Made by a program: the position numbers and the translations under genes
NCBI RefSeq assembly: GCF_000568255.1
Contig: NZ_KK037166.1
Span: 5,972,089-6,012,184 of the forward strand
Reading direction: 5' to 3'
Origin: Kutzneria sp. 744
GTDB lineage: Bacteria > Actinomycetota > Actinomycetes > Mycobacteriales > Pseudonocardiaceae
Length of the DNA stretch: 40,096 bases
Notes under the pieces: generated by a model
The model's input: only the letters and a program-made list of their open reading frames with translations
The model's database searches: none
Told to the model about the DNA's origin: nothing
Part shown: piece by piece, positions 1-23,545 of the stretch
Layout: each line of letters starts with the position of its first letter
Numbering within the stretch: the first letter of the stretch is position 1

Positions 1-222
1 GGCGTCGGTGTCGACGGGACCGGCGGAGCCGATGCCGACGGCACTGGGCACAGCGCCGTCCAACACCTCGGTGACCAGGTCGGCGACGGCCTGCCAGGCC
101 AACTCGGCGTCGTGCGCGGGAGTGGGCCGGACGGCCCGGCGCACCACGGAGCCCTGCGCGTCGACGAGCCCGGCGGCGATCTTGGTGCCGCCCACGTCGA
201 GCGCCAGCACGTGGTCGGTCAC
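1..222 (-). CDS. ROK-family sugar kinase, N-terminal part (runs off window)
   Basis: The 74 codons visible read VTDHVLALDVGGTKIAAGLV at the start, which is the ATP-binding phosphate-1 motif (DVGGTK) of ROK kinases. These proteins phosphorylate glucose, N-acetylmannosamine or similar sugars in the cytoplasm; some are repressors, but there is no N-terminal helix-turn-helix here, which favours a kinase. The GTG start (222-220) overlaps the TGA of the preceding mini-ORF as GTGA. A GAGG ribosome site lies about 8 nt upstream, inside the repeat. It is the last visible gene of the sugar importer operon, so it probably phosphorylates the imported or hydrolysed sugar. The C-terminal three quarters lie outside the window. 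Confidence 0.85.
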   Translation of the reverse strand, partial: MTDHVLALDVGGTKIAAGLVDAQGSVVRRAVRPTPAHDAELAWQAVADLVTEVLDGAVPSAVGIGSAGPVDTDA

Positions 223-299
223 AGGCCCACCTCGCTAGCGCTCGGCGGGTCTGCGACCCAGGTCCCTGCGCATATTGGTGCCCTCGCAAGCTCGGTCAC
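219..299 (-). CDS. Mini-ORF C, 26 residues, coupled to the ROK kinase start
   Basis: GTG at 299-297 overlaps the stop of mini-ORF B. The product reads VTELARAPICAGTW then VADPPSASEVGL. Its TGA at 221-219 overlaps the kinase GTG at 222-220. Like the others it has one Cys and no recognisable domain or signal. Its end carries the GAGG ribosome site used by the kinase gene. Confidence 0.5.
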   Translation of the reverse strand: MTELARAPICAGTWVADPPSASEVGL

Positions 300-376
300 C
301 GGCCCACCTCGCTAGCGCTCGGCGGGTCTGCGACCCAGGTCCCTGCGCATATTGGTGCCCTCGCAAGCTCGGTCAC
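296..376 (-). CDS. Mini-ORF B, 26 residues, second unit of the coupled repeat chain
   Basis: GTG at 376-374 overlaps the stop of mini-ORF A. GAGG lies about 8 nt upstream in the preceding repeat. The product reads VTELARAPICAGTW then VADPPSASEVGR; the last residue is Arg instead of Leu because of one base change next to the stop. TGA at 298-296 overlaps the next GTG. The unit is 77 bp, one base short of 26 codons, and that is what keeps every stop and start in the GTGA overlap. Confidence 0.5.
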   Translation of the reverse strand: MTELARAPICAGTWVADPPSASEVGR

Positions 377-453
377 AGGCCCACCTCGCTAGCGCTCGGC
401 GCGTCTGTGACCCAGGTCCCTGCGCATATCGGTGCCCTCGCAAGCTCGGTCAC
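373..453 (-). CDS. Mini-ORF A, 26 residues, first unit of the coupled repeat chain
   Basis: GTG at 453-451 sits 7 nt after a GGGAGG ribosome site that follows the permease stop codon (468-466). The frame reads VTELARAPICAGTW then VTDAPSASEVGL and ends in TGA at 375-373, which overlaps the next GTG as GTGA. It differs from the other two copies at residues 16 (Thr for Ala) and 18 (Ala for Pro). No family is recognised. It may be a translated spacer that hands ribosomes to the kinase gene rather than a functional peptide. The frame is certain; translation is inferred. Confidence 0.5.
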   Translation of the reverse strand: MTELARAPICAGTWVTDAPSASEVGL

Positions 454-465
454 CGGGATCCTCCC

Positions 466-1281
466 TCAGGCCTTGACTGCTCCCGCCATGCTAAAGCCGC
501 CGCCGAGCCACCGGGACACCACCAGATACAGCCCCAGCACGGGCGCGGTGTACAGGATCGAATAGGCCGCCAGCTGCCCGTAGGCCACGAGCCCGTTCTG
601 GCCGAAGAAGGAGAAGATGCCCACCGAGGCCGGCATCTTGTCCGGGTCGAGCAGCAGCACGAACGGCACGAAGAAGTTGCCCCAGGCCGTGATGAACGTG
701 AAGATCCCGACCACGGCCACGCCCGGGGCCATCAGCGGCAGCACGATCGAGCGCAGCGCCTGCAACGACGAGGCGCCGTCGACCCAGGCCGCCTCCTCCA
801 GGCTGATCGGGATGCCGTCCATGAAGTTCTTGCACATCCAGATGGCCATCGGCAGCGCGGTGGCGGCCAGGAACACCGTGGTCCCCCACAGCGAGTCGAC
901 CAGGGACAGCCGGACGAACAGGCCGTACACCGGCACCATGATCGCCGTCACCGGCAGGCCGGTGGTGAACAGGATCGTGTACAGGAACGGCCGCCGGAAC
1001 CGCAGCTGGAAGCGGGACAGCGGATACGCCGCCAGCACCGCCACCACCACGGCGATGATCGCCGTGCCGGAGCTGATCAACAGGCCGTTGACCAGCGGCC
1101 GGCCGCCGACCTCCCAGTTGAGGATCTGGCCGAAGTTGCCCAGGGTGGCCTCCCCCGGCACCTTCGCGGCCAGGCCGCCGTGCGTGTCGAAGGACGCCGT
1201 CACCAGCCACAGCAGCGGCGCCACGAACAGCACCGCGACGACCAGCAGAACCAGGTTGACCACCAAGCGGGGGCCGCGCAT
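466..1281 (-). CDS. Carbohydrate ABC transporter permease, MalG type
   Basis: The 271-residue protein has about six membrane segments and, around residues 160-190, the EAA loop (LEEAAWVDGASSLQALRS ... LPLMAPG) with which such permeases contact the ATPase in the cytoplasm. It is the MalG-like half of a CUT1 sugar importer. The ATG lies directly after the stop of the MalF-like gene with no gap, and GGAGG within that gene's last codons is its ribosome site, so the two are co-translated. No ATPase gene is in this operon. CUT1 importers often share an MsiK-type ATPase encoded elsewhere, which is the likely arrangement here. Confidence 0.93.
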   Translation of the reverse strand: MRGPRLVVNLVLLVVAVLFVAPLLWLVTASFDTHGGLAAKVPGEATLGNFGQILNWEVGGRPLVNGLLISSGTAIIAVVVAVLAAYPLSRFQLRFRRPFLYTILFTTGLPVTAIMVPVYGLFVRLSLVDSLWGTTVFLAATALPMAIWMCKNFMDGIPISLEEAAWVDGASSLQALRSIVLPLMAPGVAVVGIFTFITAWGNFFVPFVLLLDPDKMPASVGIFSFFGQNGLVAYGQLAAYSILYTAPVLGLYLVVSRWLGGGFSMAGAVKA

Positions 1282-19410: not shown

Positions 19411-20748
19411 ATGCCGCAGTTCAAGCACTTCCCCCTGCCCGACGTCGGCGAGGGGCTGGTCGAGGCGGAGATCCTCACCTGGCACGTCCAGCCGGGCGAC
19501 ACGGTCACCGTCAACCAGATCATCGTGGAGATCGAGACGGCCAAGGCCGCGGTCGAGCTGCCGTGCCCGTTCGCGGGCGTGGTCTCGGAGCTGCTGGTCG
19601 AGGCGGGCAAGACCGTCGACGTCGGCACGCCGATCATCGTGATCGACACCGATCCGAACGGGGAGGCGGCGCCGGTCAACGGCTCGGTCGAGCCGGAGCG
19701 GGTGCCCAACCTCGTCGGCTACGGCGTCAAGGCGGTCACCGCCAAGCGCCGGGCCCGGGTCGGTGCCCCGGCGGCCGTGCCCGCGTCGGCCGCCGTGTCC
19801 GCGGCGGTCGCGCCGGTCACGGTCGTTCCGACGCCTCCGGTCGTTCCGACGCCGCCCGTCATCGCGCCCGAGCCGGAGACCGCCGGCGGTTACGTGCCGC
19901 TGGCCAAGCCGCCGGTTCGCAAGCTGGCCAAGGACCTGGGCATCGATCTGGCCGCGCTGGCCGGCAGCGGCCCGGGTGGCGTGATCACCCGTGAGGACGT
20001 GGAGCAGGCCGTCGCGCCGGCGGCTGCTCCGGTTGCCGTTGCCGCCAGCCGGGGCGAGCGCCGCGTGCCGGTCAAGGGCGTGCGCAAGGCGACCGCGCAG
20101 GCCATGGTCGACAGCGCCTTCAAGGCCCCGCACGTCACGGAGTTCCTGACCATCGACGTGACGCCGATGATGGAGCTGCGGGCCAAGCTCAAGGACAGCC
20201 CGGAGTTCCGTGGCGTCAAGCTCACCCCGCTCGTGTTCGCCGCCAAGGCGATGTGCCTCGCGGCGCGCCGCACGCCGGACGTGAACGCGACGTGGGACGA
20301 GGCCGCCAACGAGATCGTCTACAAGGACTACGTGCACCTCGGGGTCGCGGCCGCCACGCCGCGGGGCCTGGTCGTGCCCAAGGTCCGTGACGCCGATCAG
20401 CTGTCGTTGCGGGGCCTGGCCGAGGCGTTGGAGCAGCTCACCGTGACCGCCCGGGACGGCAAGACCACGCCCGCGGACATGATGAACGGCACCATCACCA
20501 TCACCAATGTCGGCGTGTTCGGCGTCGACACCGGCACGCCGATCATCAACCCCGGCGAGTCGGCGATCCTGGCCTTCGGCGCCATCCGCGACATGCCGTG
20601 GGTGGTGAACGGCCAGGTCGTGCCGCGCAAGGTGTGCCAGCTGGCGCTGAGCTTCGACCACCGCGTGGTTGACGGACAGCAGGGCTCGCAGTACCTGGCC
20701 GATGTCGGCGCGCTGCTGGCCGACCCGTCCGTGGCGATCACCTACTGA
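19411..20748 (+). CDS. bkdC: 2-oxoacid dehydrogenase E2 (dihydrolipoyl acyltransferase)
   Basis: The 445-residue protein has one lipoyl domain (residues 1-80, PDVGEGLVEAEI and lipoyl lysine in EIETAKAAVE), an Ala/Pro/Val-rich linker, a peripheral subunit-binding domain (about 165-200, VRKLAKDLGIDLAALAGSG) and a catalytic domain ending with the active-site motif HRVVDGQQG. It moves acyl groups to CoA and forms the core of the complex. The ATG is 16 nt after bkdB, with AAGGGGGA before it. No E3 (lipoamide dehydrogenase) gene is in the window. Confidence 0.95.
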   Translation: MPQFKHFPLPDVGEGLVEAEILTWHVQPGDTVTVNQIIVEIETAKAAVELPCPFAGVVSELLVEAGKTVDVGTPIIVIDTDPNGEAAPVNGSVEPERVPNLVGYGVKAVTAKRRARVGAPAAVPASAAVSAAVAPVTVVPTPPVVPTPPVIAPEPETAGGYVPLAKPPVRKLAKDLGIDLAALAGSGPGGVITREDVEQAVAPAAAPVAVAASRGERRVPVKGVRKATAQAMVDSAFKAPHVTEFLTIDVTPMMELRAKLKDSPEFRGVKLTPLVFAAKAMCLAARRTPDVNATWDEAANEIVYKDYVHLGVAAATPRGLVVPKVRDADQLSLRGLAEALEQLTVTARDGKTTPADMMNGTITITNVGVFGVDTGTPIINPGESAILAFGAIRDMPWVVNGQVVPRKVCQLALSFDHRVVDGQQGSQYLADVGALLADPSVAITY

Positions 20749-22858: not shown

Positions 22859-23545
22859 ATGAGCGAACCGACGCCGTCCGTCCCGGTGGTCCGACTGCCG
22901 ACCCGACGGGTGGTGGCGGGTGTGGTGCTGCTGCTGGCCGGCCTGCTGGCGATCGGCGGGACCTTTGCCAGCCTGTTCGACCTGAACGTGACGGTGTCGC
23001 TCGGGCTGTCCTCGTTCGACCACACCTTCGCGGTGACGTCGTGGATCACCAACTACCCCACCTACGGCCTGCCGTTCGGCGAGACGAGCCGCACCAACTA
23101 CTTCGGCGTGCCGATCATCGTGGCTGGGGTGCTGGCGATCGTGGCGGCCAACCAGCTGCTGCGAGGCCGCGACCTGGCGCGCCGCCTGACCAGGGTCCGG
23201 ATGTTCGCGGTGGCGGCGACGGCCATGATCGCCGGCTACATCTGGCTCGCTGTCACCAACCTGGTCGACTCGATCGACACGAACTCCGGCGCCACCACCT
23301 TCAACTACTCCGCGGGCGCGGGCCTGTGGCTGCTCGTCGCCGCGGCGCTGGTGGGCGCGCTCGGCTCCGTGCTGCTGCTCGGCCTGACGCCGGACGCCGG
23401 TCCGGTTCCGGTCGCGACGCCGCCGGTGGACGAGGCGATCGCCTACCAGGTCGACGTCGACACACCGCCGATGGGCTTCGAGGTCCCGGTCAACCTGCCG
23501 CCGACCGACACCTACCAGCCGCCGGCCAAGCCCGACCACGACTAG
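22859..23545 (+). CDS. Four-helix membrane protein of unknown function
   Basis: The 228-residue protein has about four hydrophobic segments (VVAGVVLLLAGLLAIGGTFA, FGVPIIVAGVLAIVAANQLL, RMFAVAATAMIAGYIWLAV and GLWLLVAAALVGALGSVLLL), short outside loops and a Pro-rich cytoplasmic tail (PPVDEAIAYQVDVDTPPMGF). It resembles actinobacterial membrane proteins of unknown role. ATG 22859 follows CAGAAT (22846-22851) by 7 nt, so it is probably leaderless. It is 29 bp downstream of the split-barrel gene. Confidence 0.75.
   Translation: MSEPTPSVPVVRLPTRRVVAGVVLLLAGLLAIGGTFASLFDLNVTVSLGLSSFDHTFAVTSWITNYPTYGLPFGETSRTNYFGVPIIVAGVLAIVAANQLLRGRDLARRLTRVRMFAVAATAMIAGYIWLAVTNLVDSIDTNSGATTFNYSAGAGLWLLVAAALVGALGSVLLLGLTPDAGPVPVATPPVDEAIAYQVDVDTPPMGFEVPVNLPPTDTYQPPAKPDHD

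Follow-up and report, generated by a model that had tools for sequence, protein, structure and literature searches.

The three tandem 77-bp repeats that separate an ABC permease gene from a ROK-family kinase gene in this Kutzneria genome (G000) very probably descend from a single insertion of a miniature mobile repeat that was later tripled by tandem duplication, the repeat being best understood as a translation-preserving parasite that resembles the MIRUs of mycobacteria. In the mechanism that we propose, the 77-bp element would insert between the D and the TGA of a DTGA tetranucleotide, mostly where the stop and start codons of two genes overlap within an operon. The D of the target would be kept on the left and become the start of the element's own 26-codon ORF, and the terminal D brought by the element would join the TGA of the target, giving the downstream gene a new start base together with an SD sequence carried by the element itself. 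Translation arriving from upstream would then pass through the mini-ORF into the following gene via −4 overlaps at both ends, a coupling that would render the insertion nearly harmless. The element presumably moves rather than having been lost from the other species, and ribosomes would run the relay of mini-ORFs; a mobilising enzyme is presumed, and the amount of kinase may be affected.

Architecture of the permease-kinase junction

The array occupies positions 453 to 223 on the minus strand of the window (the whole stretch of 40,096 nucleotides analysed here), between the ABC permease and the ROK kinase, and the junction is composed of the following features, all on the minus strand:

466..1281: ABC permease (BPD_transp_1), upstream in the operon (PF00528, E 2.1e-11)
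454..465: original 12-nt spacer GGGAGGATCCCG with the SD-like GGAGG, now upstream of unit 1
377..453: unit 1 (77 bp; first translated), mini-ORF 373-453, VTELARAPICAGTWVTDAPSASEVGL, then stop
300..376: unit 2 (77 bp), mini-ORF 296-376, VTELARAPICAGTWVADPPSASEVGR, then stop
223..299: unit 3 (77 bp), mini-ORF 219-299, VTELARAPICAGTWVADPPSASEVGL, then stop, the TGA overlapping the kinase GTG
432..453 (unit 1), 355-376 (unit 2), 278-299 (unit 3): left-end palindrome, unit positions 1-22, start codon included, which covaries in the family
385..398, 308-321, 231-244 (units 1, 2, 3): right-end hairpin motif CGAGC-NNNN-GCGAG, positions 56-69, just 5' of the SD
380..387, 303-310, 226-233 (units 1, 2, 3): SD-like GAGGTGGG, carried for the next start
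1..222: 5' part of the ROK-family kinase, 74 codons in the window, GTG start at 222 (PF00480, E 5.7e-09)

Starting at 453, 376 and 299, each unit contributes a 26-codon ORF (GTG, 25 codons and TGA) whose stop overlaps the following GTG as GTGA, the last TGA overlapping the GTG of the kinase at 222. With a period of 77 (26 x 3 − 1), successive mini-ORFs are shifted by −1, the three starts occupy three frames, and after three such shifts the kinase is read in the frame of the first unit again. The initial annotation had recognised the three 77-bp mini-ORF units and their GTGA overlaps, which the coordinates of the repeat and of the ORFs confirm, but it had called the mini-ORFs identical in frame, which the −1 shift of each ORF from the preceding one contradicts. 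Tandem Repeats Finder reports positions 215-453 with a period of 77, 3.1 copies, 96% match and a score of 450; a single base of the 77 separates unit 2 from unit 3, and unit 1 differs from unit 3 at three positions and from unit 2 at four. The SD-like GGAGG ahead of unit 1 (464-460) is that of the old permease-kinase junction, and the later starts are preceded by GAGGTGGG, beginning at 387, 310 and 233. No Rfam family matched positions 1-2000 of the window at E values up to 1. Short tandem repeats also occur at 19769-19811 (18 bp x 2.4) and 23493-23538 (21 bp x 2.2) of the window.

A dispersed family in Kutzneria and other actinobacteria

A BLAST search returned 42 matches in G000, and a profile (R1) trained on 33 distinct units of G000 and run against that same genome returned 84 matches, which fall into 67 arrays (56 single, 7 double, 2 triple and 2 quadruple), the best with an E value of 8.9e-24. 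Since so many family matches are found in the genome, and with such significance, the array in the window is not a product of chance. By eye (alignment A1), three subfamilies can be told apart in G000, which differ in the middle of the unit and each carry an inverted repeat of their own (GGGTC-GCA-GACCC, GCGAGC-TT-GCTCGC and GTCCGCG-AA-CGCGGAC).

The family is present in all seven genomes of the genus, with 4 to 83 matches each. A second profile (R2) was trained on 47 rows from the genomes analysed. Searches over more than 40 genomes were run with stricter filters, and for the order, the class and the family f8 (taken for Mycobacteriaceae) 11 to 15 candidates were scored per genome, the copy numbers there being lower bounds; names of families and genera other than Kutzneria are inferred throughout. 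At E <= 0.001, matches were obtained in 147 of the 397 genomes of the order (36 of 86 genera), and at E <= 1e-4 in 23 of the 394 genomes of the class, and 27 of 301 f8 genomes matched at E <= 0.01, some of them weakly and, on reading, not with units. In the genus g26, inferred to be Mycobacterium, matches to R2 were weak (two genomes at E 0.004-0.007), and R2 found nothing convincing over 80 named permease loci (best E 0.063). Most distant loci that were read hold a unit of 77, 80 or 68 bp with RTGA at both ends, the exceptions including one locus with an internal stop (L068) and two that are out of frame (L080 and L201).

Position in gene overlaps

Nearly all copies in G000 begin with RTGA (82 of 84; 65 GTGA and 17 ATGA), and in 74 of the 84 the mini-ORF closes at an RTGA within 90 nt, with periods of 77 (63 copies), 68 (3), 80 (3), 74 (2), 83 (2) and 71 (1). 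In 52 of the 67 arrays, the TGA of the left RTGA is the stop of an upstream ORF that is 60 codons or longer, as compared with 140 of 467 control RTGAs (p 1e-13), the controls being taken from flanking DNA and any long open frame being counted, annotated or not. On the other side, an ORF of the same minimum length starts at the right DTG in 59 of the 67 arrays, and upstream and downstream ORFs are found together at 45 of 67 arrays versus 86 of 467 controls. Ten copies have no closed overlap, owing to a point change in start or stop, a frameshift (3569784, 76 bp; 3970252 and 3970330, 78 bp) or a run-on into the next gene, and the relay is therefore not an absolute requirement. Copies with the period of 77 have it by common descent, so that their in-frame closure does not count as independent evidence of selection.

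Two units were seen to be fused in frame to the gene that follows. Both have lost the downstream stop/start and give that gene an N-terminal extension; the one at 8058620 in G000 (L025) runs into an ABC permease-like ORF, and the other is L398 (G001:C12 about 219247-219412).

Origin of the array and the rule of insertion

At the orthologous permease-kinase junction, none of six congeners (G001-G006) carries a unit. In G001, G002, G005 and G006 the permease stop is followed by a similar 12-nt spacer and GTGACCGACCACG, and G003 and G004 are likewise unit-free, with more divergent spacers. At this place the window carries 231 bp more than its congeners; as none of their junctions holds a unit, and four of these junctions keep the 12-nt register, these bases were gained in the window. 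The nearest named record is from Kutzneria buriramensis (93% identity over the permease); the K. buriramensis record L087 equals G001 over 1400 bases, is probably of the same species and adds no separate witness. Within the array, ATATGCGC is private to the three window units among the 84 matches in the genome. As this stretch is common to the units, and as units 2 and 3 differ at only one base, we read the array as one insertion followed by tandem duplication.

For 21 of the 67 sites in G000, chosen to include the units beginning with ATGA, the two flanks were joined and compared with four congeners. An exact gap-0 empty site was found in at least one congener for 19 of the 21, and two sites (8976751 and 10983083) had no gap-0 congener among the four. 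Base counts were restricted to gap-0 congeners, gaps of −3 to 12, half matches and filled sites being dropped. Where the unit begins with A and the downstream gene with G, A is the first base at 17 of 22 gap-0 congener sites (10 sites) and G at 5, two of the 17 reading ATGG, not ATGA (1917574a and 8592146); where the unit begins with G, 17 of 21 (8 sites) begin with G and 4 with A. From these counts it follows that the left base would be that of the target and that the element would bring the new start base of the downstream gene, and the point of insertion is best read as lying between the D and the TGA of DTGA, with the D of the target staying on the left. Several downstream starts were changed from ATG to GTG by the insertion.

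The number of units at a site differs between species, each represented by one genome: 0 or 3 at the window site and 0, 1 or 4 at 5493985. Filled orthologous sites also came up in the flank comparison, for example at site 3911716, with 77 bp in G001 and G006 and 74 bp in G005. At one further site (L297, G000:C1:3565762; L331 in G006 and L382 in G002), the left flank is altered in G000 and G006 and resembles the right end of a unit, which would fit partial loss of one unit there and, in G000, the gain of another.

The initial annotation had argued that removal of the units would leave the junction in register, which is the state found in the unit-free junctions of G001, G002, G005 and G006, and its view of the units as an insertion at the kinase start codon is borne out by the empty orthologous sites of the congeners. 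It had also considered a tiny element with translation-preserving ends, in agreement with overlaps that are retained and sites that are empty at the exact base, and had named mostly intergenic copies without conserved frame or overlap as the contrary outcome; with 74 of 84 mini-ORFs closing at RTGA, this was not what we saw. The target that it proposed, GTGACC, has to be replaced by the gap between the D and the TGA of DTGA.

End palindromes and the pairing of the start codon with base 22

An alignment of 47 units drawn from many families shows a palindrome across columns 1-22, with the start codon inside it. Columns 5 and 18 pair in all 47 rows (G-C 23, C-G 15, U-A 6, A-U 1 and G-U 2), columns 1 and 22 are G-C in 41 rows, A-U in 5 and G-U in 1, and the covariation score of the left palindrome was reached by none of 500 shuffles. 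A wider scan of 176 motifs gave Watson-Crick pairs at columns 5/18 in 164. Standard pairs are formed by columns 3/20 and 4/19 in 26 and 19 of the 47 rows, respectively, and in the other rows GA frequently faces GA, a combination that would amount to a tandem G.A mismatch. In the right-end hairpin, three pairs are invariant in 47 of 47 rows.

The pairing of positions 1 and 22 was followed in the wider motif scan, which requires TGA, GAGC and GCGAG and thereby drops degraded copies. Base 22 complements the left base in 142 of 145 first-in-array copies (A-T 35, G-C 107, others 3), and the association of the two bases has a Fisher p of 3e-31 over the four main classes. Two copies in G000 (9531975 and 7313147) are identical over 77 bp save positions 1 and 22. 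Exceptions are commoner among units inside tandem arrays (6 of 31), which would follow if the neighbouring unit provides their first base. As base 1 belongs to the target and base 22 to the element, either matching targets are chosen, or a mismatch is corrected or selected against later. Positions 19-22 (mostly TCAY, GCAY or GAAY) stand opposite DTGA in the left palindrome. It is possible, and we put it forward only tentatively, that a start-codon-targeted element is guided by internal anti-target pairing and moved by an enzyme other than Y1, and that MIRUs may be a derived branch of it.

An RNA hairpin that hides the start codon was considered as well and rejected. In an RNA energy model, only the TCAC form of the left hairpin is stable (−8.4 kcal/mol, z −2.5), and neither the window's own GGCAC form (z 0.28) nor the GAAC and GAAT forms (z −0.11 and 1.21) stand out. 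Because the TCAC hairpin alone is stable, a role at the DNA level, in insertion, appears to be favoured over an RNA switch.

Substitutions in the mini-ORF

Substitutions, taken as distinct differences relative to the consensus, were counted in 64 of the 84 G000 units, namely those of 81 nt (grouped ad hoc into A with 20, B/other with 23 and C with 21), and in 43 of the 47 rows of alignment A2. In subfamily A, 30 non-synonymous and 12 synonymous changes were observed where 29.5 and 11.6 are expected under neutrality (binomial p 0.86), and in subfamily C 23 and 12 where 23.6 and 10.3 are expected (p 0.58). The B/other group had 93 and 42 plus one stop versus 98.1, 35.1 and 2.8 (p 0.20), all 64 G000 units together 99 and 47 plus one stop versus 107.0, 38.2 and 1.8 (p 0.11), and the 43 A2 rows 80 and 29 versus 80.2 and 27.1 (p 0.66). 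In each of the five sets, slightly more synonymous changes are seen than neutrality predicts, the excess being largest in the pooled set (p 0.11), and a weak constraint on the peptide is possible on these counts.

Comparison with MIRUs and other small repeats

MIRUs reportedly go back to Supply et al. in 1997. They serve to type tuberculosis strains and are called apparently mobile, the mode of movement not being stated in the excerpts of the literature drawn on here. One such excerpt, from a 2025 review, describes them as apparently mobile repeats that insert at start codons, carry an ORF coupled at −4 nt and are likely to have a small effect on the gene (PMC12548453). Units of 40-100 bp at 41 places in M. 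tuberculosis are given in part of a second paper (PMC2734929) and unit types of 77 bp and 53 bp in part of a third (PMC2453075); a passage of a fourth places three MIRUs of 77 bp in the senX3-regX3 gap of M. tuberculosis H37Rv (PMC4213456). The Kutzneria family is likewise a short dispersed repeat that occurs singly or in tandem (here of 77 bp, with 84 matches in the 67 arrays of G000), it has an internal ORF in the same direction that shares a 4-nt DTGA overlap with both neighbours, and it is inserted at a start codon/DTGA, with exactly empty congener sites for 19 of the 21 queried sites and a unit-free junction in the congeners at the window site. By analogy, we regard the family as working like MIRUs, and we do not claim membership. 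The initial annotation knew of no described family of this kind, whereas the behaviour is known from mycobacterial MIRUs. Among the matches listed in searches of the open-access literature, no MIRU-like units outside mycobacteria were found; as far as those matches go, the family outside Mycobacterium, the insertion rule at the level of single bases and the pairing of the start codon with base 22 are new.

A single unit also lies between senX3 and regX3 in Kutzneria (L022, G000:C1:6450718-6450798), where it overlaps the senX3 stop at its start and regX3 at its stop, the protein encoded downstream matching RegX3 (2oqr_A, 1.9e-117). In the congeners, this gap holds a 77-bp unit in G004, a 74-bp unit in G001 and none in G002, G005 and G006. 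The same gap was read in 50 g26 loci (taken for Mycobacterium), from which 13 distinct units of 50 or 53 bp were collected and taken as MIRUs by place, length and plan, not by published sequence. At two loci taken for Mycobacterium (L277 and L281), at least four near-identical tandem 53-bp units of the MIRU type were seen between senX3 and regX3.

For direct sequence homology to MIRUs, profiles were tested both ways, with neither result significant. On 158 units, the profile of the 13 Mycobacterium units scored no higher than 6.4 bits, the maximum among 3160 shuffles being 14.3; low scores were mildly in excess, with 4 bits or more in 18 of the 158 units and in 72 of the 3160 shuffles. When R2 was applied to 14 of the 50 g26 loci, its best match to a MIRU had an E value of 0.81 and its match to an unrelated stretch one of 0.13. 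Common to the Mycobacterium units and the Kutzneria family is a GAGC-N3/4-GCGA stretch at the right end, followed by a purine-rich SD. The two differ in that the 50/53-bp Mycobacterium units that were read showed no left palindrome with the start codon, and in that the hosts of the family are Kutzneria and other actinobacteria.

Rickettsia palindromic elements are small mobile repeats compatible with translation. The two fused units (8058620 in G000 and L398 in G001) resemble them as in-frame N-terminal extensions, but the Kutzneria element is as a rule a separate coupled ORF and not an in-frame insert. With REP/REPIN sequences and their RAYT transposases, as presented in an excerpt of PMC3116915, it has in common that it is miniature and dispersed and possesses two imperfect palindromes. 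However, REPs are extragenic according to the same excerpt (PMC3116915), whereas the Kutzneria units lie in gene overlaps and contain a coupled ORF, and G000 has no match to Y1/RAYT.

Alternative explanations

Units 1 to 3 might have been inserted independently of one another, each new unit entering the DTGA created by the one before, as every unit end recreates a DTGA target, but with ATATGCGC in all three and in no other of the 84 copies, and with a single base distinguishing units 2 and 3, such an origin is extremely improbable. That the 26-aa peptide is itself functional, and the units a small peptide-coding gene family, also seems highly improbable. The ORF is open in most copies, peptide motifs (V[ST]ELA..., SASE) recur across families, and the small synonymous excess has the same direction in all five sets; yet this excess is not significant in any set (p values from 0.11 to 0.86), a Pfam scan of one of the peptides gave no match, and conservation is concentrated in the two palindromes. 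The features that have clearly been retained are the DNA ends and the overlaps, and a function of the peptide is disfavoured.

As to the mode of movement, a miniature element of the REPIN/IS200-IS605 type, moved in trans by a Y1 (HUH) transposase, is called to mind by the two imperfect end palindromes (the left covarying, the right invariant), by target-specific insertion without a separable duplication and by a target tetranucleotide that pairs with an internal stretch. Y1 matches were indeed obtained in three of 24 other element-rich genomes, all three of one genus, but a search of 31 element-bearing genomes with PF01797 left 27 without a match, G000 among them, and one of the seven genomes of the genus has a single match of 33 residues. 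Because most of these genomes lack a Y1 match, we consider this kind of mobilisation very unlikely. A translational relay or damper, in which the number of units is selected to tune the ROK kinase relative to the permease, is suggested by the SD, start and stop that are kept in all three units, by orthologous sites that vary in unit number (0/3 at the window site, 0/1/4 at 5493985) and by M. tuberculosis, where longer repeat regions upstream of fpg1 were accompanied by higher fpg1 mRNA according to part of PMC2734929, which describes that repeat as complex, with 55- and 79-bp units. However, 67 arrays of the same element stand before many different genes, and the window site is without a unit in six of six congeners, which leaves tuning an unlikely explanation of the units; the three-unit array could have come under selection for altered kinase output.

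Implications

With the array read as a mobile repeat that inserted once and was then duplicated, MIRU-style behaviour is found far outside Mycobacterium, and the empty and filled sites in closely related species allow the insertion rule to be read directly. The pairing between the start codon and base 22 offers a concrete, testable clue to the mechanism of mobility. The repeat rewrites gene starts, by changing ATG to GTG, adding a mini-ORF and occasionally causing an N-terminal fusion, without breaking operons, and for annotators this calls for caution, as many small recurrent ORFs are probably not functional peptides.
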